Of a stretch of DNA of 64,000 nt, positions 26,988-48,332 are shown piece by piece (the first letter of the stretch is position 1; the number at the start of each line of letters is the position of its first letter). This DNA comes from Sphingobium arseniciresistens (GTDB taxonomy: Bacteria > Pseudomonadota > Alphaproteobacteria > Sphingomonadales > Sphingomonadaceae). Made by a program: the position numbers and the translations under genes. The stretch covers positions 1 through 64,000 of the forward strand of contig JARFNK010000001.1 in assembly GCA_029167225.1 (NCBI GenBank). Direction: 5' to 3'. A model generated the notes under the pieces. The model was not told the origin of the DNA. It ran no database searches and saw only the letters and a list, made by a program, of their open reading frames with translations.

Positions 26988-27061
26988 CTTTATGGTCAGC
27001 ATACAATTCAGTCAATATCCGCCATGGTCCTCAGATACCGAGGTCAACCATAAATATCATC

Positions 27062-27427
27062 ATGAGCGACACAACCTTCACCGACACATCCTACTCCGAC
27101 GATTTCGCCGACAATCTTCTGACGAACCTTGGCGACGATCCCGCGACGATCGACCTGACGATTGACCCCATCGCCATCGCCCGAATGGTCGCCGACTGTC
27201 CCGCCGACGATTGGCATGATTTTGGGTTGGATCGTCCTCGCGCATTCGACCCTGCCGATGGTTATATCGATCGTCGGCCATCATCGTCCGCGACTGTGGC
27301 ACGCCGGATGTTGAAGCTCATGAATCTCGATCGTGGGATGGACGTTCAGTTGGACGATGACTCAAAGGTTTTCCCGCATCCTGTGGACGATCGGCTTATG
27401 AGCGTCAGGGATTTTGAGGCGATGTGA
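27062..27427 (+). CDS. Acidic hypothetical protein at the left prophage end
   Basis: The protein has 121 residues, strongly acidic (about the first 60 residues rich in Asp), with no membrane segment and no recognised domain. I chose ATG 27062 because TAAATA (27051-27056) lies exactly 5 nt before it, as at the late genes on the other strand. It is a plus-strand gene, and the motif is on the plus strand too. Confidence 0.55.
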   Translation: MSDTTFTDTSYSDDFADNLLTNLGDDPATIDLTIDPIAIARMVADCPADDWHDFGLDRPRAFDPADGYIDRRPSSSATVARRMLKLMNLDRGMDVQLDDDSKVFPHPVDDRLMSVRDFEAM

Positions 27428-27512
27428 ACGGCGCTGACGGATTTGGGTGGGAAGCGGAATGTCGAGCTTTGGCCGCGAGTGGGCAAAAAGCAGACAAAGG
27501 TCAGGCCAAATT

Positions 27513-28022
27513 TCAGAGACGTAGAAGTAACGCAGCGGCAAAATGTAGCATGAGTTCTCGCGCTAGGTCGTGCTCCTGATCGGTAATGAGTGCGTCAGGA
27601 TGCGGCACCACTGCTAACAACGGTCGATCCGAAAGTGTCTCGATAACGCCAAATGGACGATCGCTCGAAGCATAAAAGCCTATGCAAATTTTTGCCATAG
27701 ATGCAGCAAACATTGAAAGAATGTCTGCATCAGCCTCAATTGATTTTCCAGAGGCAAAGGCTGCCGACGATGCCGGGCGACCGTGGACTAAAATCGTTAT
27801 TAGAGCGGCACCCTTCACCAAGGTGCATTTGATACACAACTTGCTAAGTGGCCCGGCCAATGTGTGATCGAGCACCGCATCGCCTGCATCAATTATGCCA
27901 CTGCAAAGACCAATCCACTTTGGCGACAGGTCAGCGAAGCTCCATGTTCCTTGTCCTTCCAAAACGCCATCGACGGCAAAGGGCGCAATGGTGAAGGATG
28001 TTGGAACCGATATTGAAGTCAT
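27513..28022 (-). CDS. Hypothetical phage protein
   Basis: The protein has 169 residues starting MTSISVPTSFTIAPFAV. It is mixed alpha/beta in appearance with a hydrophobic C-terminus (HFAAALLLRL) and no domain I recognise. Neither a good ribosome site nor the ATAAATA motif precedes it, so the start is uncertain; TTG 28058 is an alternative. It lies 93 nt downstream of the lysozyme. Confidence 0.45.
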   Translation of the reverse strand: MTSISVPTSFTIAPFAVDGVLEGQGTWSFADLSPKWIGLCSGIIDAGDAVLDHTLAGPLSKLCIKCTLVKGAALITILVHGRPASSAAFASGKSIEADADILSMFAASMAKICIGFYASSDRPFGVIETLSDRPLLAVVPHPDALITDQEHDLARELMLHFAAALLLRL

Positions 28023-28114
28023 GTGTCTGCTTGTGGCAACGTGTCCGCCGCCACGCAATGTCTATATCTGGTCGTTTGCGCCCGGTCCGCTTTAGCCAGC
28101 GCAATTATGGTCGT

Positions 28115-28548
28115 TCACGACAAATACAGCGCAGCTTCAGCCGCCCGGCGCTTGACCAATCCCGCGAGCACCTTGCCCACTGCCTTATTCCATCGCGAAA
28201 ATTGCGCGGCTGCGCCTTCGAAATCCCCCGCCAAATGCTTCTTCAGCAGTGTCGATTTTCGGAATGCTTCGGAGCCAATGTTGAAAGCCAGGCTGACCAT
28301 CGCGTCGAACTGGCTTTGGGTCATCGTCCCGCCGTGCTGGTTCACCGCTTTCTCGAATCGCCGGAGATCGTTGGCCAGAAGCTGCTGCGATTGATCGCGG
28401 GTGATCGTCATTCCACGCTTCACATGAGCGCCCGTCGATCCAACACCGATCGTCCAGACATTCGCGGGGCAAAGGTAAGCGGTGAGTTTCTCACCCTCAA
28501 AACGGGTGATGAGAGCCCGGCCAGCGAGCGATGTTTTTAGCGATTCAT
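28115..28548 (-). CDS. Phage lysozyme (GH24, T4-type) with a start-codon frame problem
   Basis: A muramidase that cleaves peptidoglycan at lysis. The sequence LAGRALITRFEGEKLTAYLC followed by PANVWTIGVGST carries the canonical E-8-C-5-T catalytic spacing, and QFDAMVSLAFNIGSEAF follows. In the lysozyme frame there is no ATG, GTG or TTG between the upstream stop and this catalytic region. The ATG at 28548, exactly 5 nt after a TAAATA motif (28554-28559 on the complement), opens a frame that hits TAA after three codons. A one-base frame change at about 28538 is needed. Either a mutation/error or an unusual start. Confidence 0.7.
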
Positions 28549-28572
28549 TCTGATATTTATGACGACTGACAT

Positions 28573-28761
28573 TTACTCGTCAGTCCGGCCGAACCAGCCC
28601 TGCACGGTCTTAGTCTCGAAAATACGAATGGCCGTCCAAGCGATCGTGAAAAGCGCGGCGACGCTTGGGAGCCATTGCGCCAGGGTCGCTACGACAACAG
28701 TGACGCTCAGCGCGTCAACAACACGCGCGGCGATCGTCAGAAAATCATCGGGCTCGATCAC
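28573..28761 (-). CDS. Phage holin-like membrane protein
   Basis: The protein has 62 residues with GTG start. It has two hydrophobic segments (about 15-28 and 33-48) and ends with the IRIFETKTVQGWFG stretch seen in many small phage holins. It would open the inner membrane at lysis. Its start overlaps the stop of the upstream 54-residue gene (GTGA), and the lysozyme follows directly. The true gene starts at GTG 28761. Confidence 0.7.
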   Translation of the reverse strand: MIEPDDFLTIAARVVDALSVTVVVATLAQWLPSVAALFTIAWTAIRIFETKTVQGWFGRTDE

Positions 28762-28922: not shown

Positions 28923-29075
28923 AACGATATTTATGCAGACGGCGATTTCCCGCCCTCAGCGTGATGTCGATCACGCGCAATTCCTTAACGGCGTTTTACT
29001 TCCGCATCGGATGTTTTACGCTCATGACAAGAGCGAGTCGCATCGCTTTGTTTCCAAAGAATTTCGGGGGCTGTC

Positions 29076-32559: not shown

Positions 32560-32562
32560 GCA

Positions 32563-32715
32563 TTATTTAGGCTTGGGGATGGCTTCCTTGATTTGATCGA
32601 TCATGGTCTTCCACGCGTCGTAACCGCCATGGTAGAGCAGGTCCAACTGATCTTCGATGCTCGGATATGCGGCCTTTCTCGCCTGCGCGTAACCCTTTTT
32701 GATGTCGATCTTCAT
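32563..32715 (-). CDS. 50-residue phage protein, XkdW-like
   Basis: The sequence (MKIDIKKGYAQARKAAYPSI, then EDQLDLLYHGGYDAWKTMI) resembles the short conserved segment found in XkdW-like and many tail-associated phage proteins. TAAATA (32721-32726, complement) lies 5 nt before the ATG, and its stop is part of the next gene's motif (CCTAAATAATGC). It is too short for routine gene finding but well supported by context. Confidence 0.6.
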   Translation of the reverse strand: MKIDIKKGYAQARKAAYPSIEDQLDLLYHGGYDAWKTMIDQIKEAIPKPK

Positions 32716-32723
32716 GGCTTTAT

Positions 32724-33071
32724 TTATGGCCCGGTCTGGACCACAACCACGGTTGGATGATGCGCAGGATGCATCACCGTCACCCGCATCGCCTGCTCGA
32801 CATCCGCGTCGAATTCCAGGTCGCCATCATCGATGATCGCCTCTCCATCGCTCCATACAACGATCGCACCAACTGGAAGTCCGCCAATCATGTTACGCGA
32901 GATCGTCAGAGTCATGTGCGTGCGCAGGCGGACCGCGCCATCCTTGAAATAGACATCGTTCGCACTAGCTCCGGCCGGAAATTCAGCCTCAAAAACCGTC
33001 TTTTCCGGTGGCATCATGTCCGTTTCCGTCGCACAGATAAGAGCGCCGTTTTCGTCGAAAAATCCTTTCAT
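32724..33071 (-). CDS. Hypothetical tail-associated protein
   Basis: The protein has 115 residues starting MKGFFDENGALICATETDMM. It is beta-rich and acidic, with no recognised domain. It overlaps the large central tail protein's stop by ATGA, so it is translationally coupled; an upstream extension would lie inside that gene. Probably a small baseplate or fibre partner. Confidence 0.55.
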   Translation of the reverse strand: MKGFFDENGALICATETDMMPPEKTVFEAEFPAGASANDVYFKDGAVRLRTHMTLTISRNMIGGLPVGAIVVWSDGEAIIDDGDLEFDADVEQAMRVTVMHPAHHPTVVVVQTGP

Positions 33072-35839
33072 CGCTTTGCTCCCATTAGCGTCATTACGAT
33101 ATCGCGCACCCACATCGCGCGAGCCACCGATTCAGGCAGCGCATTGGTCGAAGTGCAGTCTGCGCGCACCCGCACCTGTGAGCCGGTCGCCAGCGTTTTG
33201 AGAATGTTGGCCATACGCCAATAGGTGTCACCAGAGTTGGTCGATGCGCCAACGGTCTGCTGGCGCACGAGCGTCCAACCACCGCCGGTATCGACATAGA
33301 GGCTGACGCGCGCGGCGGCGTCGAACTGGCCATCGACACTCACATCGATCGTGCAACTGACATCGACCAGGCCATTGCCATAGCTGCCATCGCCGATGGT
33401 CATCCATCCGCTTTCGAAATAGGTCACGGTGGCGCCTGCGCTGACATATGTATCGCCGGATGTGGCGACCTGGTTGGCCGTGATGGCGCCACCGGCCACC
33501 TTGAGGGTGTCGATGGCCGCTGTCTGAATGGCCGCATTCTTTATGTATGTCGTCCCACCCGAGACGATAAACGGCGCTGTCCCGGCATTGCTCGACGGAT
33601 CGATAACAAAGAAATTGTCGGCCAGGACCGCGAAATTGGAGGTTTGGCCATTCGATGCCAGACCAAACCCGCTGGCCCGCCCATTGGCGTTCATGGTCAC
33701 GGTCCAGCGATTTTCGACGCCACCAACCCGGTTGATCGTCGATGTCAGACTTTGCTGAACGCCAGCAATCTGACCGCCGAGCGTCGTATTGACACTCTGG
33801 ATGGACGATGCCGTTGCATTGTCTCCATCCACGATGGCCTGCGACAGTCCAGCGACCCTGGCCTCGACGGTCTGGCCACTGCCCGCGAGATTGTTTAGCC
33901 TTGCGCTGACATTATTGATCGCCGACGCATTCGCTGAATCGCCATCGACCCGCGCCTGATCGACGCTTGAAATCCGCGCCTCAATCGTCTGACCGCTGAC
34001 ATTATTGAGCCTCGCCTGAAGACCGTCTATGCGCGATGCTTCGGCCGATATGGCGGTCGACCTCGCCGAGCGCTCGTTCACAATATCCGTTTCAGCCTGA
34101 CCCATCCGCGTCGACAAACCATTATATGAAGTGGTCTGCGCAGAATCAGCGTTCGTCCGCGCGGTCTGTTCAGCCACGACCAGTGCTCGAATGTCGGAAT
34201 CGGTCTGCGCGACCAAACTGGTCATGGTCGATGACAGACTTTCGAAATCGTCCGTTCGAGCCAATCGCTCTTCCACGATCGCGGCTTCATTGTCCCCAAC
34301 GCGTGCGGTCAGTTCGGTGACGGTCGTCGAGATTGCCGCGTCAGCATTCGCCCGCGCAGATTCTTCAGTTGCGATGCGCGCGACAGTCTGGCCGACCGTC
34401 GCCTCCAGGGTCTCCCGCGCTGTTGCTTCCTGATCGAAATGAACATTGGCGTAATCCTGAACAGACCGTGCGTAGCGATCGACAGCCGTCATCCCAGCCA
34501 GTGATTGCTCAGCGATTTCGGTCAGTTCGGCACGAAGATTCGGGCCAAGACTGGTGGCCGGGAGACCGCCAGTTGCCAAGAGATCGTCCACCTGATCTTT
34601 CGTCTCATTGGCCAGCGCTTCGGCTGCCTGAGCCGCTGCTTGTGCCGCCGCCGCCGCCGCCAGTGCGTCGCTCGCGTCGAGCAAAATCGGCGCAATGTCG
34701 CTATCGCTATGGACTGTCCAGCTATGGTCATACCCGACTTTCACCCGGTAGACCGGGCTCGCCGCATTCAACTGTTGATACGATTCCACCAACGGAAGTG
34801 TCGATCGATCGCCGTCCAGATTGCCGATCGGACCATCGGCGAAAAAGTCACCGGCAAAGAATTTGCCCGCCCCATCGGCGAGAAGGTAGCCGCCGACCTG
34901 GCAAAGCGCGTCACGGCAAACCTCGCCGACGTCGACCTGATCGGCTGAATAGAAAGACCATGGCTGGTCGAATTCAGAGAGCGTCGCGAGGTCGATTTCG
35001 GCACTCGACACGCATGTCGAAAGCATATGTTGGACAATCTGACCGACCGTCAGTGCTGACTGTCCAGCGACCGTGGCGCCGACCACGTCAGCGGTGATGA
35101 GACCGCTTGGCTGACCACCAAGGCGATACATGCCGACCGATGGTGCGGCGGCCCATTGGCCGGGAAGAAGTGCGAGACCGCGTAGTGCTTCATAGCTCGA
35201 AACTATCGCTGACGGTCCGCTCGCCACGGGATAGGCCCTTTCATAGACCATCTCGACCGCCTGCGTCGGGCCATAGGCGTGATACTCGTAAATCCAGTAG
35301 GCGGAATCGATCAGCACACCGCTGACATTCTGAGCCCGACCGCTGCACCATGGCCGCTCGATGCCCTTGATTTCGGCGATGCCTTCGGCGCCGCCGGTTC
35401 CTGCGTAGGTTTTGCTGAGCAGATTTTTCGCTAGACGGGATTCGGGACCGGCCAGACCGATCGTGCAGACAGCACCTTCGCGGCTCAACGCGCCGCAATT
35501 TCCAGAGAAGATTTGCTCATATTGAGAGAATTCCGCGCCATCTTCGCCGGACCAGATTTCACAGTGACGACCGTCAAACGAATATGTCGCCCAAGCCGTG
35601 TTCTCGAAGTTCGAAGTGACCAGGAATTGAAGGTTGCCCCAGCTTGTCGCCGCCGGTTGCAACGCACCGTTCGAGAAAATCTCGATGCTGCCGGGGTCGA
35701 GACTTTGCAGACACGGTAGCCACAATTGATCATCGACGACGGTCCCCGCCGCAGTAGCGCCGACACGGCTCATCCTGATTGTCTTGATGCTATCCGAGAC
35801 AGGATCGCGAGCTTCGATTTTTACGATAATATTGCGCAC
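33068..35839 (-). CDS. Central tail tip/fibre protein with DUF1983-like C-terminus
   Basis: The protein has 923 residues. Residues 1-390 are a beta-rich tail-hub-like region; about 390-710 is a long Ala-rich helical coiled coil with repeats of the ARxxADSA/IVDGDxA type. The C-terminal part (GVENRWTVTMNANGRASGFG, ADNFFVIDPS, TYIKNAAIQTAAI) matches the DUF1983 region of lambda J-like tail tip proteins. It starts with GTG at 35839, with TAAATA (35845-35850, complement) 5 nt upstream. It probably forms the tail tip involved in adsorption. Confidence 0.8.
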   Translation of the reverse strand: MRNIIVKIEARDPVSDSIKTIRMSRVGATAAGTVVDDQLWLPCLQSLDPGSIEIFSNGALQPAATSWGNLQFLVTSNFENTAWATYSFDGRHCEIWSGEDGAEFSQYEQIFSGNCGALSREGAVCTIGLAGPESRLAKNLLSKTYAGTGGAEGIAEIKGIERPWCSGRAQNVSGVLIDSAYWIYEYHAYGPTQAVEMVYERAYPVASGPSAIVSSYEALRGLALLPGQWAAAPSVGMYRLGGQPSGLITADVVGATVAGQSALTVGQIVQHMLSTCVSSAEIDLATLSEFDQPWSFYSADQVDVGEVCRDALCQVGGYLLADGAGKFFAGDFFADGPIGNLDGDRSTLPLVESYQQLNAASPVYRVKVGYDHSWTVHSDSDIAPILLDASDALAAAAAAQAAAQAAEALANETKDQVDDLLATGGLPATSLGPNLRAELTEIAEQSLAGMTAVDRYARSVQDYANVHFDQEATARETLEATVGQTVARIATEESARANADAAISTTVTELTARVGDNEAAIVEERLARTDDFESLSSTMTSLVAQTDSDIRALVVAEQTARTNADSAQTTSYNGLSTRMGQAETDIVNERSARSTAISAEASRIDGLQARLNNVSGQTIEARISSVDQARVDGDSANASAINNVSARLNNLAGSGQTVEARVAGLSQAIVDGDNATASSIQSVNTTLGGQIAGVQQSLTSTINRVGGVENRWTVTMNANGRASGFGLASNGQTSNFAVLADNFFVIDPSSNAGTAPFIVSGGTTYIKNAAIQTAAIDTLKVAGGAITANQVATSGDTYVSAGATVTYFESGWMTIGDGSYGNGLVDVSCTIDVSVDGQFDAAARVSLYVDTGGGWTLVRQQTVGASTNSGDTYWRMANILKTLATGSQVRVRADCTSTNALPESVARAMWVRDIVMTLMGAKR

Positions 35840-35867
35840 GCGAGTATTTATGTGCGCATCGTGATCA

Positions 35868-36997: not shown

Positions 36998-37005
36998 GCA
37001 GGTAT

Positions 37006-39675
37006 TTAGACCGTTGGGGCGGTCGCCTTACCGTTGAGGTAAGCGTTGCCACGAAGGCTTTGGCTCAGAACCTGAACGTTCTGCTCGACCAGCATCGCGA
37101 GATACGAGTTCGTCTTCGACTGTTCGACAACCTGCTGCTGAGCAGCATCGACGGCCGCTTGTTGAGCAGCGAGCGCCGCGTCCTGAGCAGCCGTCACGCG
37201 GTCAGTCGTCGTCCCGATCGCCGCCGCCGTGTCCGATGACAGCATGGAGCGGATGTCCTGAAACTGGCTCGTGGAGGTGCCATAAGCGTCCCCCGCGAGG
37301 CCGAAAATCTCGTTCGCGAGCTTCGCATAGGCGTCATTATCAACGGCGTTTCCAGCTTCGATGTTCGCCTGATACCCAGCATATTCAGCCAGGTCGGCAT
37401 TCAACCGCTGCATGACGGTCGCGCCTGACCCTTCCCCGTTCAGCGTTTTCTGAAGGTCACGAAGGCTGGAGGTCTGTTCTTCAACGAGCTTCGCAAGCTG
37501 AACACTCCGATAGCGCTCGACATCGGCGAGGTCAGAAGCGCTGGCGCCAGCGGCGACCATCTGCTTGACCATGCTATCCAGACTGGAATTGATGTTGTCG
37601 ATCGACGCGCCCAATGGATCATCGAGCGCAGCAAGATCGCTCTGAAGCGTCTCGAATTTCGTCGCCAGGTCGAGGACAGATGCGAAAGTGTCTTCGGTCG
37701 CCGACTTCAGAATTTTGGTCGAGAAAGCGCTGATTCCTGACAGAATGCCCTGCTGAATGCTGGCAAATGTCGCGTAGGCGATAGCGGAATCGGAATCATC
37801 ACCGAAATCTTTGACATCTGCGTATTTGCCCTTGAGCTTTCCGGTGCGGCCGGTGTTGCTGACCCGCCATTTTCCTTTGTATTGGCCGATCGTGACGCTT
37901 GGATCGCCGGAGATGGTCGCGCCAAGTGCAGCGGCTATTTCCGCGATGCTGGACCCAACGCCTCCCACAGCCGTGCTGGCGTTGTCCTTGTAAGCCTGCT
38001 TGTTGCCGTTCGTGCTGCCGACCACGACCTGACCGTCCGAGACATTAATCTCCGACGTCCCCCAGCGCGTTTTTTTGAGAAGACCGCCGAGCGCAGAACC
38101 TACAAATCCGCCGACCAAGGCGCCGAGCGGGCCGCCAATCATAGAGCCCGCCGCACCACCAAGCTGCGCGCCAGTCTTGCTGCCCTTCATGCCCAACAGT
38201 GAGGTAAGCTGGCCGCTCATGCTGCCAAGCTCAGCACCCGCACTGATCTGCCCCATTGTCTTCCCGAGAGTTTTCCCGAATTCGCCCTTCAAGCCAAAGG
38301 TTTTTCCAAGCTGGTCACTCAGCTTTCCGAGGACTTCCCGGTTCGCTTCTTTGAAACCGTCTGCGACCGACCCGCCGAGCATGTCAGCGACATTTCCGAG
38401 CACGCCAGCGCCACGAAGATCGCCGGTCGATGCTGCCGTGATGCGATCCAAGGCTTTGCCGATATTGTTGATAGCCTTGCCAAAACGGCCTTCGAAGGCA
38501 TCGCCGATGTTTTTGATGGCGTCGCTGAATTCATAGATCGTTTCGGCTTTGATGCTCGCGATGGCGTCATCCATCCCAGACAGGACGCTCTTTTGAACGG
38601 CCTTCGACAGACCGGCCGCATCAGCACCTTCGAGAAATTCAGAACGGTCACGGCCGATGTTCGCGAGACGATTGTTGCGATCGACCGATGGCGAATAATG
38701 AGCGGCAATGTCTTTGGCTTTCGCAATCGCGGCGGCCTGACCTTCGAAAGCGGCCTTCGTGCGCAGCGCTGTCGCAAGGCGCTCTTCTTCAGTTTTCCAA
38801 GCCGCCGTCGCCAGGTCATTGAGCGTCGCGCCAGCATTCAATGCATCGAGACGATATTTCGCAAGCTGGTCCTGAACGCTGGCTTCAGATTCAGTAAGGC
38901 CGAGCTTTTCCCCCGCATTTACGAGGTTTTCGTTCTCCGTCTGACCGTCACGAGACTGGCAGACTGGCGATGTCCGACTATCGAGCGTGCTGAGCCATTT
39001 GAGGCTTTTGATGAGGTTGCCGTTACGCTTGTAAACTTCGCCACGAGCATTGCTCGCGACGGTCGAAGACGCCGTCAGCACAAGCGTTTGTGCCGATTTT
39101 CGCGAAATATTGAGGACACCGTCAGAGTATTGCGCGGCCTTCGTGCCCGCGATCCGGCGAACGATTTCGTCGCTGGTCTGTCCTTGCACCAGCCCGAGCC
39201 GGATTGCCTGCTCGACGCGGCCCTGACGATTGGCCGACATGTGGTCGGTCCAAGATGTCAGCAAGTGGCCGTCGATCGGAGATTTTTCGACCAGAGTCCG
39301 CAGATAGGTCGCTGGCGGGAGATTGATTTCATGGTCAATCGCGAGGGCGGACGACAAGCCTTTCGCAGCCCATTCCGCCTCATATTCGGCATAGTCACCG
39401 AGATCGGCGCTCAGACCGGCGCCGACCTTCTTATAAACGCTGTCGTTTATCGTGCGGGTTTCTTCGAGCAGCGTTTCGAGACGCTTTGTTGTAGCTGGAC
39501 CAAGGTCGAAGCCGCGTTCTTCGAATTTCGCTAACCGCTTCGCGATCGTCTCGACAAGTTCATCATCGCTTGCGTTGAGCAGGCGAACGATCTTGTTCGC
39601 CAGACCGCGCGCATACTTCTCCGCCTGCAAGGCGTGGCGGATCGCTTCGTCACGAAGCGTCTCATTAACACTCAT
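37006..39675 (-). CDS. Chimeric MuF minor head protein / tape-measure protein
   Basis: The protein has 889 residues. Residues 1 to about 244 are a Mu F-like head morphogenesis domain, including TASSTVASNARGEVYKRNGN and LDSRTSPVCQSRDG. That domain normally continues with a conserved His/Cys segment (HPNCRS-like), which is absent. From about 246 the sequence changes to a tape-measure C-terminal region: helices, the Gly-rich hydrophobic stretch IGGPLGALVGGFVGSALGGLL at about 530, then a KKTRWGTSEI segment and long helices. The two parts belong to proteins several kilobases apart in complete phages. ATG 39675 is preceded by the portal stop (TTG 39681 possible); no ATAAATA motif here. Confidence 0.75.
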   Translation of the reverse strand: MSVNETLRDEAIRHALQAEKYARGLANKIVRLLNASDDELVETIAKRLAKFEERGFDLGPATTKRLETLLEETRTINDSVYKKVGAGLSADLGDYAEYEAEWAAKGLSSALAIDHEINLPPATYLRTLVEKSPIDGHLLTSWTDHMSANRQGRVEQAIRLGLVQGQTSDEIVRRIAGTKAAQYSDGVLNISRKSAQTLVLTASSTVASNARGEVYKRNGNLIKSLKWLSTLDSRTSPVCQSRDGQTENENLVNAGEKLGLTESEASVQDQLAKYRLDALNAGATLNDLATAAWKTEEERLATALRTKAAFEGQAAAIAKAKDIAAHYSPSVDRNNRLANIGRDRSEFLEGADAAGLSKAVQKSVLSGMDDAIASIKAETIYEFSDAIKNIGDAFEGRFGKAINNIGKALDRITAASTGDLRGAGVLGNVADMLGGSVADGFKEANREVLGKLSDQLGKTFGLKGEFGKTLGKTMGQISAGAELGSMSGQLTSLLGMKGSKTGAQLGGAAGSMIGGPLGALVGGFVGSALGGLLKKTRWGTSEINVSDGQVVVGSTNGNKQAYKDNASTAVGGVGSSIAEIAAALGATISGDPSVTIGQYKGKWRVSNTGRTGKLKGKYADVKDFGDDSDSAIAYATFASIQQGILSGISAFSTKILKSATEDTFASVLDLATKFETLQSDLAALDDPLGASIDNINSSLDSMVKQMVAAGASASDLADVERYRSVQLAKLVEEQTSSLRDLQKTLNGEGSGATVMQRLNADLAEYAGYQANIEAGNAVDNDAYAKLANEIFGLAGDAYGTSTSQFQDIRSMLSSDTAAAIGTTTDRVTAAQDAALAAQQAAVDAAQQQVVEQSKTNSYLAMLVEQNVQVLSQSLRGNAYLNGKATAPTV

Positions 39676-39677
39676 GA

Positions 39678-41033
39678 TCAAATGCCGGTCGGCGGCGCGT
39701 CTACCGTGTCTTGGTCAATGCGCGCCTTTTCGGTCTCATAATCGAGACCATCATCGACCACCTCACCGGCCTTCAAAATCGAGAAGAACGTCTCACTGGA
39801 CATGCGGCCAGCCTGCACGACGGCGAGTAGCGCCGTGATGTCTTGAGCAGTCATCGCGATCGGCATGAAGTCGGTATTGAGCGAGTATGAAATCGGCGCA
39901 GCGCGCATCCAGTCCATCGCCAGATTGACCATGGTTTCAAGCTGAGTGGCCACCGTCTTCGCCATCGCGGCCAGGATGCTGCCTTCCGCCGCCCTGCGAA
40001 TGGCCAGCGTTTCAGCGGCTTCAGCAGCAGCTTTTTCAGTCTGAAGGACACGGTCGCCGATGGCGGCCATCTGGTCGATGAGGCTATCGCAGTGCTCTTT
40101 CAGCGCGGCCACGCCAGCACCGGAATGTTCGGAAATGTTGACCTTCGTGGCTTCACTTTCGAACAACCAGACTGAGTCCGGCGAGACGACAAAAGGTGCT
40201 TCGCCGCCGTCAGTTGCGATGCCGGTGATGTTGCGGATTGGCGATGCGATGTGGCGGAGAACATTGCTGTGCTGCGCCTGCGCGCGAAAGTGAGCGAGAT
40301 TCATGAGCGCCAAATCATCAATCGGCGCTTTTGGTGGGCTGATCGCGCCTGCAACCGTCGAGACGACTTTGAATGGAATTTCGCCGAGTGGCTGGCCGCC
40401 TTTTGTCGGGATGATCGGCGCATCTTCGACCCAATCCGATCCGATTTTGCGGTGCATGATGACCTGATAGACACCATCGATGAGGATCAATTCGCGAACG
40501 GTAACGGCATCGTCGAGCAAGCGAACGCGGGTCAGCGCGAAGCGATTGCGGATGACTTCTCGCGTGACTTCAAGGATCGATTCAGCCCGATAAAGCTCAA
40601 CGAATGGGCGATAGCCGTCCGCGATTGCCTGCGCGGCTGACAGGCCAGATGGCTGGGCTGGGCTGTCTACAAGGACGCCTGTGAAATTCGTGACGAGTGT
40701 CTCAGACGCCAGTTCGCGAGCGAGTTCGTCGAGACTGTAGCGACGCGAGATCGTCGCCAGAACATCCTCATAGCCTTCGCCGCCGATGGCGACGGGGTCT
40801 TTGCGGAAGATGAGACCGAGGCGGCTTTCATGAACACGCTGAGCAGCCGGGAAAAAATCGACGCTGGCGTTATAGGCGAGGTAATCGGCGGACGATTGGG
40901 ACGGCAGCTTCGGGAGGTAAGACTGGCCTGCGGCCTTCACCGCGTCCTCGCCAGCGAGAACATCGCGGTTGCGCTTCCAACGCTTGAAATGACAGGAAAT
41001 TTCTGGTGTCGGAGTGCTGATATCGGAGGTCAT
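39678..41033 (-). CDS. Phage portal protein (DUF4055-like)
   Basis: The protein has 451 residues. It resembles DUF4055 portal proteins, which form the dodecameric ring for DNA entry into the capsid (segments RVHESRLGLIFRKDP and GEIPFKVVSTVAG). The ATG at 41033 is chosen because TAAATA (41038-41043, complement) lies 4 nt upstream; a 52-residue upstream extension runs through the intergenic and plus-strand gene region and is not conserved-looking. The downstream gene is the MuF chimera; no capsid gene intervenes. Confidence 0.8.
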   Translation of the reverse strand: MTSDISTPTPEISCHFKRWKRNRDVLAGEDAVKAAGQSYLPKLPSQSSADYLAYNASVDFFPAAQRVHESRLGLIFRKDPVAIGGEGYEDVLATISRRYSLDELARELASETLVTNFTGVLVDSPAQPSGLSAAQAIADGYRPFVELYRAESILEVTREVIRNRFALTRVRLLDDAVTVRELILIDGVYQVIMHRKIGSDWVEDAPIIPTKGGQPLGEIPFKVVSTVAGAISPPKAPIDDLALMNLAHFRAQAQHSNVLRHIASPIRNITGIATDGGEAPFVVSPDSVWLFESEATKVNISEHSGAGVAALKEHCDSLIDQMAAIGDRVLQTEKAAAEAAETLAIRRAAEGSILAAMAKTVATQLETMVNLAMDWMRAAPISYSLNTDFMPIAMTAQDITALLAVVQAGRMSSETFFSILKAGEVVDDGLDYETEKARIDQDTVDAPPTGI

Positions 41034-41062
41034 CCGATATTTAGCTGATTCAAGGGGGCAGG

Positions 41063-41383: not shown

Positions 41384-42703
41384 CCAAAAGCCGGTCAGTT
41401 GTAGCGACCGACCGCGCTTCGGCTGCTCGACCTCACCGGTCAGTTCACTCAACCCCCAGACCAGCGCGTCGAGGCGGTCGGGGGAGCCATCTTTTCGGCG
41501 ATCGTAGTCCACATGAAACTTATACATTTGCTGCTCAAGTGCCGAGAATTCACCGACATGGTGGACACGGCCTTTCGAGTAGAGCGTGGAAATCGGTTCA
41601 GCCCGGATGACCTTGCCCTTCGAAGCATGAACCAGCTTGATCGGCAAATATGGCGCTTCGACGGCCATGTTTCGCTCGACCATGTCGCCGCCGTTGTTCT
41701 TTTCAGCGACCACCAAGTCTGCTGAGAAATCGGTGTAGGCGCTGACCACCGCCTTCGCCCACGTCTCTGGCGAGCCCCTGGTGCTATAATCGGCGAGAAC
41801 ATAAAGCTCGCCATCGGCGCCCTGACCTACCACGGCGATGCCGGTTTCATCTGAATTCTCGTTCGAAGAAGCGGCCGGGTCGACCGAAACGACAACGCGA
41901 ACCAGGTTGTCGGGGGCTGAAACAACTCGATGTGCGTTGACATCGCTTGGCTTGAACATGGAGTATTCGCGCTCGTCACGCCAATAGCCGTGGACATAGC
42001 GCTGAACATCGGCCTCAGAGCCATCCATCAAATCTTCGAGGTAATCACTCCCAAGATGCGTGTCAGTATTGCTGACATTCATTTGCAAGCTTACCCAATC
42101 CTCCGGGCTACGGAGTGGAACATTGCGTGCAGGATTATTCTTCAGGATGAAACACTGATACGAAAAATGCGACTTTAGGTCTGGGTTGAGGTCATAGAAC
42201 ATGCGAAGCGGTAGTTCTCTACCTGACACCGTTTTCTTGACATCACGAAGTCGCGATTTGAGTTTAGTTACCTCACCATAGTCGAATTCATCGCACTCAT
42301 TCAGCCAAATCGTAGCGAATTTATCGCCCATGATCCGGGTGATATTGTGACTGTCCAGACCTGCGAAGAAGAAAATCGAGCCATTGCCAAGCTCGATCGT
42401 CATTTCAGTTTCATTTATCTTCGTACGAGTATCGGCAAGAATACCTGGAAAAGTCATCTCCATCGCGTCGCGAAACGCGAGGTCAAACAGCGTGCGACGA
42501 CAAGAAGTTGCAGTCTTTCTGAATATTCCGTGCCTTGACCCTGGCGCGTTCATACCCCGCATCAAAATGATGTGGCTGATTGCAATGGACTTTCCTGAGC
42601 CACCACCGCCGAAATAAAGAATATTTTTCGCAGTCGTCGACCTCGCGAGGTCGAGCGCTTTTTGCTGAATCGGAATAGGAGAGAATTGGCTTTCGAGCTT
42701 CAC
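41375..42703 (-). CDS. terL: Large terminase (DNA-packaging ATPase/nuclease)
   Basis: The protein has 442 residues. The ATPase half shows Walker A GGGGSGKS at residues 32-39 and a Walker B-like FATIWLNECDEFD. The nuclease half has VVSVDPAASSNEN, VVAEKNNGGDMV and DRLDALVWGL, giving the acidic RNase-H-like residues. It packages DNA through the portal encoded downstream. It starts with GTG at 42703, with TAAATA (42709-42714, complement) 5 nt before it. Confidence 0.9.
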   Translation of the reverse strand: MKLESQFSPIPIQQKALDLARSTTAKNILYFGGGGSGKSIAISHIILMRGMNAPGSRHGIFRKTATSCRRTLFDLAFRDAMEMTFPGILADTRTKINETEMTIELGNGSIFFFAGLDSHNITRIMGDKFATIWLNECDEFDYGEVTKLKSRLRDVKKTVSGRELPLRMFYDLNPDLKSHFSYQCFILKNNPARNVPLRSPEDWVSLQMNVSNTDTHLGSDYLEDLMDGSEADVQRYVHGYWRDEREYSMFKPSDVNAHRVVSAPDNLVRVVVSVDPAASSNENSDETGIAVVGQGADGELYVLADYSTRGSPETWAKAVVSAYTDFSADLVVAEKNNGGDMVERNMAVEAPYLPIKLVHASKGKVIRAEPISTLYSKGRVHHVGEFSALEQQMYKFHVDYDRRKDGSPDRLDALVWGLSELTGEVEQPKRGRSLQLTGFWSA

Positions 42704-42744
42704 GCCGATATTTATCAGCGTGAAGCACTATTCATGATTGGCGG

Positions 42745-43932
42745 TCAAAGAGCCTTTTGGACAGCCGAGACCACGGCGTCGGCAAGCCGCTGCCCAAGGT
42801 ACAGATGACCGGCCTGGTTGGGGTGCGTGTTGTCGCCAGGGCCGATGTAAATGTCTGAATTACCAGTGTTATTGGTAGCACCAACCCGGCCGGTGCCGAA
42901 AAGCCACGGGCGATTTTCATCGATCGTCGTCGAGATCGGAATGAACAGGATCGCGGAATCGCACATCGCCATGACTGCCGAGCGAATCGACAGTTCGACC
43001 TCAGTGATCGAATTCGCGCCAGTGCTTGGGCCGGTAGCGGCACCAAACGCGCCAAGGACGATGATCAACGCTTCAGGTTGAGCATCCCGGATAGCGCGAA
43101 GATGCTCCAAAACATTCGCATAGACCGATCCGGCCATCGAGCCGAGCGAGTCATTGAGACCACCGCCGAGAAGGACGACATCGTAGGGCTGCGCGGTCAC
43201 GTAGCGCATGCGGTCTTCTGAACCGAAGCGGCTGAAACCAGCCGTAGCGCTTGGATTTACATGGCCGGTGCCACCCTGGATTTGCGCGACCAACGACCAT
43301 CCCATGAAATGGGATGCGATACGATACAGGCTATCATGCTCAAAATTGAGCGTCGTGTTACCGTAGCTGTCTGTGAGCGCGAGCGCTTTGAGAGGCGCTT
43401 CACGAGGCTTCCAAAGTTGGGTCGTCGTCGGCTTGAGAATCGCTTCGATCGCGCCATTGGTCTGACGCTCGATGACCACCGTATGCAGACCCCCAACGGC
43501 GAAATTCACTGTGATGTAGGTGCCATTCGCGAGCGAGAAGACGGTCGGCGTGTCGCTGCCGATGTAGTAGTCATCGCAAATGACGCGGAAGCCAGAACCA
43601 GAATTCTCGACCTTCACGCAGATCGTGGTGCCATCGAATGTCAGGCCGAAGGTGGACATGGCGAAACCGCCACCGCCACCAGACTTTGGAATCTGGCTTC
43701 GAACAACAGTGCCGTAGGGCGTTTGCGGGACACCATTGAGCGCCAATGGAAGCGTATTCGTCGCGATCATACCGGCGAGATTGCCGATGTCGGTAAGTCC
43801 CGCAGGCGCTGTTGCGGACTGTGTGACAGTCAGACCGCCACCATTTCCGGCTGCGGTCGGGTTGATCATCGGATTATAGTCCTGCACGGACCTGAAGCGA
43901 TTCAGCACATTTTCGAGAGATTTCTGGGTCAT
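42745..43932 (-). CDS. SGNH-family hydrolase, phage-borne (copy 1)
   Basis: The protein has 395 residues. SGNH features: LALTDSYGNTT in block I (Thr in place of the usual Gly of GDS), LLGGGLND in block III (Gly-Asn), and GDNTHPNQAGH in block V (Asp and His). Such phage proteins are often sugar O-deacetylases or surface-polymer depolymerases. It is related in layout to the next gene upstream. TAAATA (43938-43943, complement) lies 5 nt before the ATG. Confidence 0.75.
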   Translation of the reverse strand: MTQKSLENVLNRFRSVQDYNPMINPTAAGNGGGLTVTQSATAPAGLTDIGNLAGMIATNTLPLALNGVPQTPYGTVVRSQIPKSGGGGGFAMSTFGLTFDGTTICVKVENSGSGFRVICDDYYIGSDTPTVFSLANGTYITVNFAVGGLHTVVIERQTNGAIEAILKPTTTQLWKPREAPLKALALTDSYGNTTLNFEHDSLYRIASHFMGWSLVAQIQGGTGHVNPSATAGFSRFGSEDRMRYVTAQPYDVVLLGGGLNDSLGSMAGSVYANVLEHLRAIRDAQPEALIIVLGAFGAATGPSTGANSITEVELSIRSAVMAMCDSAILFIPISTTIDENRPWLFGTGRVGATNNTGNSDIYIGPGDNTHPNQAGHLYLGQRLADAVVSAVQKAL

Positions 43933-43960
43933 GCTTCTATTTATTCATGACCCAGAAAAT

Positions 43961-45199
43961 TCAACGTGGCGCTTTCACGATCGCATTTGCGTGTCGGATG
44001 ACGCAGTTGGCGACATAGCGACCAAGGTAGTCATCGCCCTCGACCACGGGGTGAATGTTGTCGGCGCCAATATAGACGTTCGAGTTACCAGCACCGCTCA
44101 CAGCGCCAACACGACCAGCGATTTGCTGAACATTCTCAGCCAGCGTATCGAAATACATAATGCGACGGGCGGCAACAGCACTGGTCTGCGCGGCGACCGC
44201 GTTCCTCATGGCGTCAAAAATTCCCTGGGAGGGGTTCAGGCCAGGGGCGCGCCATGGCCCAACAACCGTGACGATCGCATTTGGCAGCGCAGCCAGCATA
44301 TTCTGATAGTATGCAGTGGCGAGTGTCTGGACAGTCGTCGCATTCTGACCAGCATCGGTGATGCCAGCACAAACGACGATCCAATCGGGGTTGTAGGGCT
44401 GAACATCAGTTGCGAATTTCTCCTGATATTTTTTACCAGATTGGTTTCCATTGGTCATGAAACCAGTGCTGCCTTCCCCGACATTCCAATAGTCCTTCAC
44501 GCCAAGATAGGCCGCTGCCTGACCAGCGCAGGTCTGCAATGCGTTGTTGCCATTATTGCCGCCTTCACTGAAGCTGTCGCCGATATGCGCGACACGGAGA
44601 CCACGATTTTCGACAGTCCACAGGTTGTAGTCGCGTTCGCGCTTCACACCACCGAAATTGATCTGACCACCCACTTCGACCTCGATCGTCCGGCGAGCAT
44701 ATGTGGCAAAATCAAGGATATACTGACGAGGTGAGAAACCGGTCAAGTCTGTGCGGGGAGCGACAGCCAAGGGACGACCGTCGACCCAAATTCTGACGAC
44801 ACCAGAGCCCATCAAATTCACATCCAGGTAACGACCACCATAGCCGAACACGACTCGGTATGGTCCGCCGAAACCGCCCGTGTAGGACTTTCTCGACCAA
44901 CCCTTCAACGTCGTCATGGCGCCAACATAGCTGTTCCAACTGGCGCCGGTCGTGAAGACATCACCCGGCTCCATTTGTGATCCCAAATAGGTAAAAACAG
45001 AATCTTGGGGCGCGACTAAAACACCGTTCGCGATCGTGCTGGCGGTTGATCCGGCCGATAGCGTGATGGCTACTGAAGCGGTGCTTGCAACCGGGTCAGA
45101 GCCGGTCGCTGCGCTGGTGAGCATCGAGGCAGCTTTGTCCCGGAGAATGGTGTCCTGACTCGTTGGGACACGGCGGACAAATGGACTGAAGAAAGCCAT
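43961..45199 (-). CDS. SGNH-family hydrolase, phage-borne (copy 2)
   Basis: The protein has 412 residues. Block I is RVAHIGDSFSEGG (nucleophile Ser), an oxyanion Gly lies in NVGEGSTGFM, and the C-terminal catalytic pair is in GADNIHPVVEGDDYLG. It probably acts on host surface carbohydrate esters. Translation appears coupled to a 13-residue leader ORF whose TGA overlaps this ATG (TGATG); the late motif precedes the leader, not this gene. Confidence 0.78.
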   Translation of the reverse strand: MAFFSPFVRRVPTSQDTILRDKAASMLTSAATGSDPVASTASVAITLSAGSTASTIANGVLVAPQDSVFTYLGSQMEPGDVFTTGASWNSYVGAMTTLKGWSRKSYTGGFGGPYRVVFGYGGRYLDVNLMGSGVVRIWVDGRPLAVAPRTDLTGFSPRQYILDFATYARRTIEVEVGGQINFGGVKRERDYNLWTVENRGLRVAHIGDSFSEGGNNGNNALQTCAGQAAAYLGVKDYWNVGEGSTGFMTNGNQSGKKYQEKFATDVQPYNPDWIVVCAGITDAGQNATTVQTLATAYYQNMLAALPNAIVTVVGPWRAPGLNPSQGIFDAMRNAVAAQTSAVAARRIMYFDTLAENVQQIAGRVGAVSGAGNSNVYIGADNIHPVVEGDDYLGRYVANCVIRHANAIVKAPR

Positions 45200-45240
45200 C
45201 AGATTGTGGCCTCGCGAATAGTGTGAAGGTGATCGTTCAT
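45199..45240 (-). CDS. 13-residue leader ORF coupled to SGNH copy 2
   Basis: MNDHLHTIREATI starts exactly 5 nt after TAAATA (45246-45251, complement) and ends in a TGATG overlap with the hydrolase start. Either a true leader peptide or the original start of a longer N-terminus; the motif spacing favours real initiation here. Confidence 0.4.
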   Translation of the reverse strand: MNDHLHTIREATI

Positions 45241-45275
45241 GCGACTATTTATTCAGCGCGATGCGTCACTATAGG

Positions 45276-45692: not shown

Positions 45693-45899
45693 GATGATAT
45701 TTATGCAGGGACGATTTCAGACTGTTTCCAGACCGTTTATGCGGACGATCGTGCAGTCATATGGCTATTTCGACGATGCCCTGAGAAGGGCTTAAAACGG
45801 CTTACAGGGGCATTCCACAGAGCATCGGCGGGACGCACTCCTACCCTTTCCTTACACCACCCAAGCCCCTAGAATCGGCTAGATTTTGAGGGGGATGAT

Positions 45900-46562
45900 A
45901 TGCGGAAATGGGTAGCAGGATTGACCGGAGCGACTGCCCTGATTGGCTTCGCGATATGGGGACTGGATAAACTCGGCATCATCAACCGATATGCTTTTGA
46001 GTGGGGCGATTTCGCCACCCTAGCAACCGGCGCTCTGGCCGTGGCAGGCGCGATATACGTCGGGCATAGGCAGATTGCCATAATCACCGAGCAGACTGCC
46101 ATTTCCAAAAAGCAGGCCGCAATCTCCGAAAGGCAAGTTCAGCTACAACAGGCCAACATGCTGGCAGACCTGTTCGATAGGCGTATGGATGCGTACAATT
46201 CGGTAATTGACCTTCTCCGGCGGTTTGATGATCCAACAACCATCGAATCAAAACGAACGTGGATGGATGACTTCAATACCGCCGCTAACAAATGTCGCTT
46301 TCTATTCCGTAAAGACGTTCACAACGAAGTACACAAAATATTTACAAAATGGAACTCATTTCAGCAACACAAAGAACAAAATAAACTAAAAATCGATGAA
46401 AAATTTATCGATACAGAAATTCAAAAAAAAGAAATGGAATTTATAGTTTGGCAAATGGGCATGATTTCTAGCATGTACAAAGTGTTCTATCCAGAAATGA
46501 ATTTATCTGGTCAGTTTTTTAGCCCACCTTTTGACAATACCGCTTCACCGTCGCCACACTGA
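45900..46562 (+). CDS. AT-rich membrane protein with coiled coil, moron-like
   Basis: The protein has 220 residues. Two membrane segments (about 5-25 and 38-55) are followed by a Gln-rich coiled coil (QTAISKKQAAISERQVQLQQA) and a helical C-terminus rich in Lys, Asn and Ile. The second half is far more AT-rich than its neighbours, suggesting recent transfer. It has a strong ribosome site (AGGGGGAT) and its 3' end overlaps the serine recombinase by 44 bp. A superinfection-exclusion or defence role is conceivable but not shown. Confidence 0.65.
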   Translation: MRKWVAGLTGATALIGFAIWGLDKLGIINRYAFEWGDFATLATGALAVAGAIYVGHRQIAIITEQTAISKKQAAISERQVQLQQANMLADLFDRRMDAYNSVIDLLRRFDDPTTIESKRTWMDDFNTAANKCRFLFRKDVHNEVHKIFTKWNSFQQHKEQNKLKIDEKFIDTEIQKKEMEFIVWQMGMISSMYKVFYPEMNLSGQFFSPPFDNTASPSPH

Positions 46563-47115
46563 CGCCAAAATGTTCAGCCGTCTTCTTTATGCTGGCGGCA
46601 TTATCCTGGCGCCATTTAACCACCATAGAAGCATCATGCGTCGGAGACCGGCCCAATGACACCTTGCCACGGTGGGTCTTTCCAGTGGCCTTTAGAGAGG
46701 CTCTAGCGGCCTCTCTCCCAGCCTGTGTGCGGGACGTAATTTTATTGCGCTCCATCTGCGCCAACTGCGCGAGCAAGGCCAAAACAAACTCGCCCATTTC
46801 GCCATCAATAAGACCGAGACCATTCACATAAAGGCGCACGCCCTTGGCTTTGAAATGGTCCCGGAAGGTCATCTGAATGTCGATGGAATCGCGGCCTAGA
46901 CGGTCGATCGCGGTGACATATACGGTGTCACCTTCACGCATGTAGTCGAGCAGCTTCGCGAAGCCCGGCCGCTTTGCTGCAATGACCGCACCGCTGACAG
47001 CGTGGTCCTGGAATTCCTTGTCAAAATGATCACCAAGCTGATGACGCTGGCTTTCAATGGACTGGTCGAGAGTGCTGACGCGGTAGTATGCAATTTTGGT
47101 CATGGTATAGCTCAT
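46519..47115 (-). CDS. Serine recombinase, resolvase/invertase type
   Basis: The protein has 198 residues. The catalytic domain starts KIAYYRVSTLDQSIESQ (Ser in YRVS), with VYVTAIDRLGRDSIDI, and the C-terminal HTH reads SIKKTAEHFGVSVATVKRYC. It could resolve or invert DNA; no inverted segment is obvious. A TATAAATA motif lies further upstream than usual (about 14 nt before this ATG), where a promoter reading fits better. M at 47103 is an alternative start. Confidence 0.82.
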   Translation of the reverse strand: MSYTMTKIAYYRVSTLDQSIESQRHQLGDHFDKEFQDHAVSGAVIAAKRPGFAKLLDYMREGDTVYVTAIDRLGRDSIDIQMTFRDHFKAKGVRLYVNGLGLIDGEMGEFVLALLAQLAQMERNKITSRTQAGREAARASLKATGKTHRGKVSLGRSPTHDASMVVKWRQDNAASIKKTAEHFGVSVATVKRYCQKVG

Positions 47116-47220
47116 TTGTTACAAGGCTATTTATACACCATGGCGCATAATCGCGTCTATATGTTTTAAGCCATAGCGAGCATGTGATTTCGCTATGGCT
47201 TATTAGTGTGAAGTTTCGAG

Positions 47221-47460
47221 CTAATCAGCGGGAGCGTTCCCAAAATCGAATTCAGGAGTCGGCGGGCCACCCAAAGCGGCACTTCCATCCGAACGCATAG
47301 CCACATGATACCTTTCCGCGCCAGGTTGCGCCGCCAAGGCAACTTCAAGGCCATCTTTCACTGTCATCCCAGCGCCGGTAGGCCCCATAGCCGAAATTGC
47401 ATCAGCGATAACCAGCGCTTCAGCATCAGTAACATCTAAAAGCATCAAAACACGGCGCAT
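47221..47460 (-). CDS. Small hypothetical protein
   Basis: The protein has 79 residues starting MRRVLMLLDVTDAEALVIAD. It is preceded by a good ribosome site (GGAGAG), unlike the late genes with the ATAAATA motif. No domain recognised. Confidence 0.5.
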   Translation of the reverse strand: MRRVLMLLDVTDAEALVIADAISAMGPTGAGMTVKDGLEVALAAQPGAERYHVAMRSDGSAALGGPPTPEFDFGNAPAD

Positions 47461-47519
47461 AATACTCTCCAGACAAACGGAATCACGTCATACACAGCCA
47501 GGCACGTCCATGAAACAGT

Positions 47520-48044
47520 TCAATACTTGTCCGCGTCGTTGGGTAGAACGTACTGAACAGCCTGACGAACATCGACTTGCTGACGCTCGCCAAATTCTGG
47601 CCGGTTGCGTTGTGCAATATTCGCATTAATGGCCTTTATGAGAAGCTCATCACGACGAGCGTCGCCAGTCGAAAATTCACCACCCATCGCGATGTTCATC
47701 CGCATGTCAGCAAGCGCGCGCTGACCGATCGCCTGCGCCTCTTTCACATCACGATCCAGCGCAGCATCTCCTTTGCACCAATTCCAAATCGTCGAAGACG
47801 ATGGCATGCGAGGGTCGGTCGTAATGCTGGTCATCGTCTCACCACCCATCAGCCGCTCGATTATTTCGTCGATCATCACAGAAGTTCTGATCGACGATGA
47901 ACCAGGCTTCAGCGCAGCCATCTGCCTTAGTCGTGACCCCAGATCTTGAATGGCCGTTTTTCCAATCGCGGCCAGTTTCAGCGGGTTTGCAGAAACGATT
48001 TCCGCGACTGTGAGCGAACCGTTAAGTGTAGTGTCGTCTTCCAT
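47520..48044 (-). CDS. Small terminase-like protein
   Basis: The protein has 174 residues. The segment TSITTDPRMPSSSTIWNWCK followed by DVKEAQAIGQRALADM is typical of small-terminase-like proteins that recognise packaging DNA. ATG 48044 is chosen because TAAATA (48050-48055, complement) lies 5 nt upstream. It is separated from the large terminase by about 5 kb of recombinase, HNH and SGNH genes, an unusual arrangement. Confidence 0.65.
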   Translation of the reverse strand: MEDDTTLNGSLTVAEIVSANPLKLAAIGKTAIQDLGSRLRQMAALKPGSSSIRTSVMIDEIIERLMGGETMTSITTDPRMPSSSTIWNWCKGDAALDRDVKEAQAIGQRALADMRMNIAMGGEFSTGDARRDELLIKAINANIAQRNRPEFGERQQVDVRQAVQYVLPNDADKY

Positions 48045-48332
48045 ATCTCTATTTAGTGCCGTGCGATGATTGCAAGCACTATATGTAGTATGTCGACCGG
48101 GATTTCGGTGGCTCCGCTTACTATAGCGACCAGCGTCAAAGAAATGGGGCTGATGTGAGAGAATTCGGGATTTCACTTAAATATGCGACATGAAAATCAT
48201 GCACATATTAACATGGTCTTGAATAAACCCAGATGCATTTAAACAGTATGATGCGATAAATCAGCAGATTATTCGCAATCTACTTCACAGAATCCGCTTA
48301 CTAGACCACACGATGACGCTTGGAGATCGCAC

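Follow-up and report, generated by a model that had tools for sequence, protein, structure and literature searches.

In bacteriophage T4, late genes are transcribed from promoters (TATAAATA; with gp55, gp33 and gp45) consisting of an 8-bp box whose first base lies at -13, and the account in PMC2988020 gives no conservation at -35. A late promoter variant, NATAAATA, is given for cyanophage S-PM2 (PMC2984593). Some T4 genes, including e, soc, 49 and I-TevI, are described as having hairpins that keep early read-through RNA from being translated; in gene e, the start is hidden in the longer early RNAs but not in those made from late promoters near the 5' strand of the hairpin (PMC3014915). Here, we analyzed a 64,000-nucleotide (nt) stretch of Sphingobium arseniciresistens DNA (contig JARFNK010000001.1, positions 1 to 64,000; hereafter the window), in which nearly the same word, TAAATA, is found 4 or 5 nt before the start codons of late genes of a prophage. 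We consider (A/C)TAA[A/G]TA the probable core of a phage late promoter that has T4-like geometry and often gives leaderless mRNA.

Two other systems place short elements close to start codons. The SAS element of cluster K mycobacteriophages sits a few nucleotides before starts. It is described, together with ESAS, as a conserved short element found before many genes, mostly in one orientation and with inverted repeats at about half of the sites, and its word, GGGATAGGAGCCC, has a Shine-Dalgarno (SD)-like core (PMC3203893). TAAATA has no such core or other SD character and also occurs 18-60 nt upstream of SD-led starts, and it does not belong with SAS. In Deinococcus-Thermus, a -10-type element is placed right before the start codon with no SD, much as proposed here; however, it is described there as a common expression pattern of the organisms themselves (PMC12340547), whereas the arrangement reported here is limited to one phage lineage and uses another word.

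Occurrence and spacing of TAAATA in the window

An earlier sequence-only reading of the window had noted TAAATA on the coding strand 5, sometimes 4, nt before 13 start codons. This was confirmed for all 13, with a spacing of 5 at 11 of them and of 4 at the other two (32559 and 41033; Table 1). Eleven also hold as starts of genes; the remaining two, 28548 and 45240, open only 3 codons and a 13-codon mini-open reading frame (mini-ORF), respectively. The serine recombinase was correctly described as having the word farther off, 12 bases from its ATG.

The count against shuffled controls that the same reading had proposed was far beyond chance. TAAATA occurs 21 times in the window versus 4.8 expected, and the highest of 100 dinucleotide shuffles reached 12. 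Between 26.9 and 50.0 kb, where only ATG/GTG frames of at least 40 codons were considered, 11 of the 16 copies were found at spacing 4 or 5, and other adjacent pairs of spacings held 0.27 on average and 1 at most. Among hexamers composed of the same letters, the runner-up had 4 of 15 copies at these spacings and is itself a one-base shift of TAAATA. The gene at 27062 is the only rightward gene of the prophage (26.8-57.5 kb) with the word at spacing 4 or 5. Two rightward copies were 3 bases from an ATG (50915, 43 codons; 54523, 4 codons), and one copy was 6 bases from ATG 48190 (10 codons).

In the 6.6-Mb host genome, the arrangement TAAATA-N5-ATG occurs 15 times, nine of which are in the window prophage, and the reversed control gave 3. 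The remaining six places are scattered and look like chance. Chance or compositional AT-richness before starts has a negligible probability as an explanation of the whole pattern: starts are AT-rich in general, and nothing further speaks for it, whereas shuffles, other spacings, permuted hexamers and the relatives described below all contradict it.

Distribution in related phages

We fetched prophage regions with a homologous large terminase or portal from the same bacterial family; ten carried the word and three (G286, G166 and G043) did not. The latter were excluded as box-negative from the prophage counts of sites, spacing, SD, hairpins and terminators. An unbiased hexamer count over 11 stretches placed TAAATA among the strongest signals, with 18 occurrences at 5 nt (1.5 expected from other distances) and 14 at 4 nt (1.6 expected), beside the classical SD word AAGGAG (11 versus 0.8). 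In the 11 prophages, TAAATA was found 16 times at spacing 4 and 27 times at spacing 5, compared to a mean of 2.03 over spacings 8-40. Viral contigs, deduplicated against the prophages and none of them chosen for the word, had 24 and 15 versus 2.85. TAAGTA is a variant of TAAATA by the same spacing behavior, with 7 and 7 occurrences at spacings 4 and 5 in prophages (mean elsewhere, 0.6) and again 7 and 7 in contigs (versus 0.8). Our first contig set left out box-negative contigs and included four loci picked by hand from a group of 28 (L112, L114 and L126, where several sites were seen, and L106, for its one-sided strand). The main contig counts were redone on all 32 loci and further pieces, deduplicated against the prophages; the redone figures are given here and left our probabilities as they were.

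The word was also strongly biased toward the late strand, with 128 of 139 copies in the 11 prophages, 153 of 159 in 20 clade contigs and 13-19 per genome in each of 8 viral records. In a tree of portal proteins (42 rows), it was confined to a single clade, supported at 97/91 and comprising 30 rows of prophages and viral contigs (the tree was midpoint-rooted and has some long branches). TAAATA or TAAGTA was present at spacing 4 or 5 in 27 of these rows, and in the three negative by spacing (G005, L157 and L153) the late strand carried the word at a greater distance from the start. The pattern was absent from the remaining 12 rows, apart from chance-level matches in five contigs set negative by hand; L158-L163 had been called negative before the tree was made, and five of these six had one or two such matches. 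The tree omits G015, L164 and L165, whose portals are too short, and G043, in which no portal was found. Among 32 portal relatives in viral contigs, 18 clade members showed the word at spacing 4 or 5. Terminase relatives in viral contigs (55 loci) had no spacing peak. Absence of the motif at orthologous starts in relatives, which the sequence-only reading had named as a ground for refutation, was checked for, and the check did not refute that reading.

The nearest named isolates had 28.5% identity in the portal protein, and in one of them, Dinoroseobacter phage R5C, no TAAATA was detected in the 31.9 kb examined. A literature search restricted to open-licence papers, and thus weak as evidence, found no description of the TAAATA element, and nothing was returned from such papers on Sphingomonas prophage late promoters.

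The base or bases before the word vary by phage, often being GG in G005 and G278, mostly C in G076 and A or C in the window. These differences look as if the recognizing factor differed between phages.

Geometry of the proposed promoter and predicted start site

For 88 sites, selected by the TAA[A/G]TA core itself, we looked for conservation over 45 upstream positions. No -35-like element was found: the base adjacent to the word reached 0.39 bits and no other exceeded 0.20. The adjacent base was A or C at 80% of these sites. T4 late promoters, too, are described as a single TATA-type box roughly one turn of the helix ahead of the start, with no conserved -35 element (PMC2988020). There are differences as well: T4 has T where A or C precedes the word here, and T or A two bases further on at the left end of the box; TAAGTA is a common variant in the present set; very many sites adjoin start codons; and the hosts are sphingomonads and the phages temperate siphovirus-like prophages. 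The element would work like a T4 late promoter, while membership in the T4 system is not supported because no gp55 was found (see below).

Since the 8-bp T4 box begins at -13, the T4 +1 is the sixth base after the box, so that a T4-like +1 would fall on the A of the ATG at spacing 5. At this spacing, the base preceding the ATG was a pyrimidine at 26 of 28 prophage starts and 17 of 19 contig starts (43/47 together) compared to 37 of 72 SD-led control starts, which fits a pyrimidine-purine transcription start. With the A of the start codon at the T4-type +1 and a pyrimidine before it at nearly all such sites, leaderless mRNA is likely at spacing-5 starts.

Predicted leaderless and leadered forms of the same genes

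Orthologous genes differed in the placement of the word, which was either 4-5 nt from the start with no SD, or approximately 18-60 nt upstream with an SD in between. Such switching was observed in five orthologue groups: small terminase, portal, the gene after the major head gene, tape measure and a small gene beside the tail genes (gene labels were checked for two of the phages). Pairing with the anti-SD in the near class was -2.2 kcal/mol for 43 prophage starts and -2.1 kcal/mol for 38 contig starts, similar to random (-2.5). In the far class, defined by a word 15-60 nt upstream and picked by ORF length alone with no SD required, it was -6.7 (48 prophage starts) and -7.5 kcal/mol (48 contig starts). 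Accordingly, -5 kcal/mol was reached by 83% and 88% of far-class starts in prophages and contigs, versus 14% and 8% of near-class starts. The word adjoined the start (spacing 3-6) at about half of gene-linked sites (52/94). Near-class genes thus combine a spacing of 4 or 5 with SD energies close to random, and the adjacent element is their putative promoter. A promoter would explain both classes, since the word would set the 5' end of the RNA and an SD would be needed only when there is a leader.

The sequence-only reading had offered two interpretations, a T4-like late promoter producing leaderless mRNAs and a non-SD translation-initiation signal. The former is the better supported, with the amendment that at orthologues the word also lies 18-60 bases upstream of an SD; the latter is disfavored by the same observation. 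As a ribosome-binding signal, UAAAUA would act 4-5 nt before the start by pairing with rRNA or by attracting a ribosomal protein, and both the fixed spacing at the place of an SD and the lack of SD in box-at-start genes agree with this. However, orthologues have the word 18-60 nt upstream of a good SD, genes within units of the same phages (h4, h5 and t10) manage without the word, and TAAATA is, by inspection, not complementary to the anti-SD. We therefore regard a ribosome signal as very unlikely.

Much the same low probability applies to a binding site for a repressor or another protein overlapping late gene starts, such as an operator, a stoperator or a SAS-like element. A short asymmetric repeat in one orientation with inverted repeats nearby does resemble SAS/ESAS of mycobacteriophages as described in PMC3203893. 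On the other hand, the bimodal link between word position and the presence of an SD calls for an RNA whose 5' end is close to the word, and the arms of the inverted repeats (see below) differ from gene to gene, unlike those of an operator.

In addition, 10 of 184 sites had an intrinsic-terminator-like hairpin within the 80 nt preceding the word, compared to a mean of 1.27 in shuffles (maximum 4 in 60) and of 2.57 at random positions (maximum 7 in 30); for contigs, this count used the first set, and one of the 10 matches is in L106. These hairpins were located 7-36 nt before the word at nine sites and 55 nt before it at the tenth, and four of them separated the major head gene from its downstream neighbor (G014, G021b, G036 and G076). 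The near/far switch, the terminators before the word at some sites and the lack of a -35 element argue for a late promoter rather than a ribosome signal.

Hairpins around the start codon

Several box-adjacent starts lie within inverted repeats (Table 1). Hairpins containing the start were found at 13 of 56 near-class sites in the 11 prophages versus 0.32 in shuffled sequences (maximum 3 in 200 shuffles), and at 5 of 53 sites in an independent contig set versus 0.47 (maximum 3). With dinucleotide instead of mononucleotide shuffles, 13 of 54 were found versus 0.58, and SD-led controls had 0/34 and 0/39. All these counts require a hairpin that begins upstream of the start codon. An unconstrained search, with mononucleotide shuffles, listed 18 near-class hairpins that likewise begin before the start codon, one of which (G014) is in a head-gene leader and is probably not at a real start. 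Because part of each of these hairpins precedes the start codon, an mRNA whose 5' end is the start codon could not form the complete stem.

This arrangement resembles that of T4 gene e as described in PMC3014915, in that the hairpin would hide the start region only in longer transcripts and the late promoter is within or beside the 5' strand of the stem. In contrast to gene e, the start codon itself is in the stem or loop at the 13 prophage and 5 contig sites, and the lock is predicted from sequence.

Taken together, these features suggest the following mechanism. Most late transcription units would have their own copy of a lone TATA-type box at the -10 position, without a -35 element. Where the box is beside the start codon, the RNA would begin at the start codon or a base or two earlier, giving a leaderless mRNA; where the box is about 18-60 nt upstream, the RNA would have a short leader with a normal SD. 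In a subset of leaderless genes, the inverted repeat spanning the start would be complete only in read-through RNA, which would hide the start codon, so that most of the protein would come from late-promoter transcripts.

A further possibility is RNA processing, in which an endonuclease that acts at UAAAUA or immediately downstream of it would cleave a polycistronic late mRNA, leaving leaderless or short-leader 5' ends protected by adjacent hairpins. The word is often placed in the loop of a hairpin or immediately before one, as processing sites can be, and is an AU-rich single strand within GC-richer RNA. Nevertheless, the word is also carried by the first recognized late gene (48044) and by a solitary gene of the opposite orientation (27062), neither of which offers much for processing, and terminator-like hairpins precede it at the ten sites noted above. 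Moreover, the position of the hairpins varies relative to the word, whereas the word is fixed relative to the start codon. Processing is thus an improbable explanation, if less so than a ribosome signal or a protein site.

The leaders of the major head gene in seven prophages (L074, L082, L080, L075, L077, L085 and L094) have a hairpin of 7-10 bp beginning one base after the word. By eye, some of them have a second possible hairpin with the SD in its 3' arm. It is possible that the major-head leader is a regulatory leader RNA.

Weighing the promoter reading and the search for its factor

Several observations weigh against the promoter reading. Spacing 3 was also raised in contigs (10 versus 2.85). 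At spacing 4, the base before the ATG was G at 15 of 20 prophage starts and 19 of 25 contig starts, and these mRNAs may carry one or two extra bases. GTG served as the start codon at 3 of 23 box-adjacent starts with spacing 4 and at 5 of 30 with spacing 5, and GTG is poor for leaderless initiation in E. coli. Hairpins beginning after the word were found at 16 prophage sites (versus 0.74) and 17 contig sites (versus 1.10), and in 11 of the 16 and 15 of the 17 they begin 0-2 nt after it; seven of the prophage sites are the major-head leaders described above. Complete pairing in such hairpins would fit an RNA end nearer the word and argues against one fixed start point. Mean start accessibility in read-through RNA at 95 near-class sites was 0.38, no different from the 0.43 of SD genes (p 0.21) and weakly below the 0.47 of shuffles (p 0.03). 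Because the mean barely differs, a read-through lock can hold only for a subset of genes.

The factor is another point of this kind. The sequence-only reading saw no T4 late sigma, and this holds for recognizable ones: in 10 viral records, some of which may be fragments, and 6 genomes, no match to the gp55 family was better than E 0.1. phrog_234 matched in 0 of the 16 and phrog_12791 in one, at E 0.11 and at a chromosomal place in G278. In addition, no sigma region 2 or 4 above the cut-off was detected in 14 records, and none of the early gene clusters was common to every box-bearing phage, some of these being fragments. As a control, T4 gp55 matched phrog_234 at 2.9e-69 and Pfam Sigma70_r2 only at E 0.087. 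Since gp55 itself barely registers in Pfam, negative results for Pfam sigma families are weak when taken alone.

Below the cut-off, Sigma70_r2 was matched in 1 of the 14 records and Sigma70_r4 in 2. A Pfam and PHROGs scan of 114 early or accessory ORFs from 7 prophages gave two weak Sigma70_r4 matches (best E 2.8e-4) among the 25 commonest families listed, and 20 single proteins searched against the same databases had no sigma match above the cut-off. The ORF at 53850-54329 was rejected as a clade-wide factor, as it matched only itself and one other among 29 scored candidates. Among clusters common to at least six groups, the only widely shared one outside the virion and packaging genes was the serine recombinase (46519-47115 in the window, near the terminase genes), which was present in 18 of 26 box-bearing groups even though the window prophage has a tyrosine integrase. 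The window protein has weak similarity to sigma region 4. However, the recombinase is missing in G069a, G539 and G544, which have the small terminase; it was set aside as the reader of the word and is kept as an idea only.

A phage-encoded factor that recognizes TAAATA is nevertheless likely, because the host shows little evidence of using it (most genomic copies of TAAATA-N5-ATG being in the prophage). A broader proposal is that these temperate sphingomonad phages, unrelated to T4, have late promoters of T4 geometry read by a factor other than gp55, supply most virion proteins through many individual and often leaderless mRNAs, use hairpins to silence read-through, and would thus have converged on both halves of the T4 late strategy. 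On this we are evenly divided.

The window prophage

The region from 26.8 to 57.5 kb is taken as one element because it is bounded by a 47-bp direct repeat (26805-26851 and 57488-57534). The prophage between the repeats is approximately 30.7 kb, and the repeat overlaps a tRNA-Arg gene. It encodes a tyrosine integrase; its early block runs rightward and its late block leftward. The late block includes genes for the small terminase, serine recombinase, HNH endonuclease, two related 'head decoration' proteins, large terminase, portal and tail proteins, as well as an endolysin frame. One ORF (37006-39681) joins the N-terminal part of a head-morphogenesis protein to the C-terminal part of a tape measure. 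Compared with relatives such as G014, the prophage also lacks the major head gene along with further head and tail genes, and it is defective.

Table 1. TAAATA sites and start-containing inverted repeats in the window
Feature	Position	Strand	Start codon and distance	Gene or remark
TAAATA	27051..27056	+	ATG 27062, 5 nt	lone + strand gene, 121 codons
TAAATA	28554..28559	-	ATG 28548, 5 nt	3 codons only
TAAATA	28928..28933	-	ATG 28922, 5 nt	54-codon gene
TAAATA	32564..32569	-	ATG 32559, 4 nt	tail fibre, 794 codons
TAAATA	32721..32726	-	ATG 32715, 5 nt	50-codon gene
TAAATA	35845..35850	-	GTG 35839, 5 nt	tail tip, 923 codons
TAAATA	37003..37008	-	ATG 36997, 5 nt	118-codon gene beside tail genes
TAAATA	41038..41043	-	ATG 41033, 4 nt	portal, 451 codons
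TAAATA	42709..42714	-	GTG 42703, 5 nt	large terminase, 442 codons
TAAATA	43938..43943	-	ATG 43932, 5 nt	'head decoration' PHROG, 395 codons
TAAATA	45246..45251	-	ATG 45240, 5 nt	13-codon mini-ORF
TAAATA	45698..45703	-	ATG 45692, 5 nt	HNH endonuclease, 138 codons
TATAAATA	47128..47133	-	ATG 47115, 12 nt	serine recombinase; outside spacing 4/5
TAAATA	48050..48055	-	ATG 48044, 5 nt	small terminase, first recognized gene of leftward late block
inverted repeat, 7 bp	35833..35858	-	GTG 35839	12-nt loop with TAAATA; 3' arm covers GTG
inverted repeat, 8 bp	41020..41040	-	ATG 41033	encloses ATG; 5' arm upstream of start codon save last base
inverted repeat, 9 bp	42697..42726	-	GTG 42703	12-nt loop with TAAATA; 3' arm covers GTG
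inverted repeat, 13 bp	43921..43958	-	ATG 43932	12-nt loop with TAAATA; 3' arm covers ATG

The frame of the endolysin (28115-28548 region) differs from that of ATG 28548, and its first listed ATG/GTG/TTG is at 28423. The mini-ORF at 45240 ends in a TGA that shares bases with the start codon of the following gene, ATG 45199 (TGATG), and it is possible that this is a leaderless mini-ORF coupled to a full gene. Besides the two related 'head decoration' proteins at 42745-45199, a 49% identical copy is present on another contig of the same genome (L105:13716-14831), located 7.5 kb from a relative of the large terminase.

Implications

In most temperate siphoviruses, late transcription depends on one promoter or a small number of them, assisted by an antiterminator or an activator. 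The lineage described here appears to use many tiny promoters per genome, which have no -35 element and often fuse promoter and start codon. If so, both a previously unrecognized RNA polymerase specificity factor and a second case of hairpin-locked read-through RNA are predicted. The more surprising part, if true, would be a factor other than gp55 together with a double convergence with T4. In addition, gene callers that rely on SD sequences may misplace starts in these phages. Finally, the same gene occurs in putatively leaderless and leadered forms; with this natural series, the costs and benefits of translating leaderless mRNA would be testable gene by gene.

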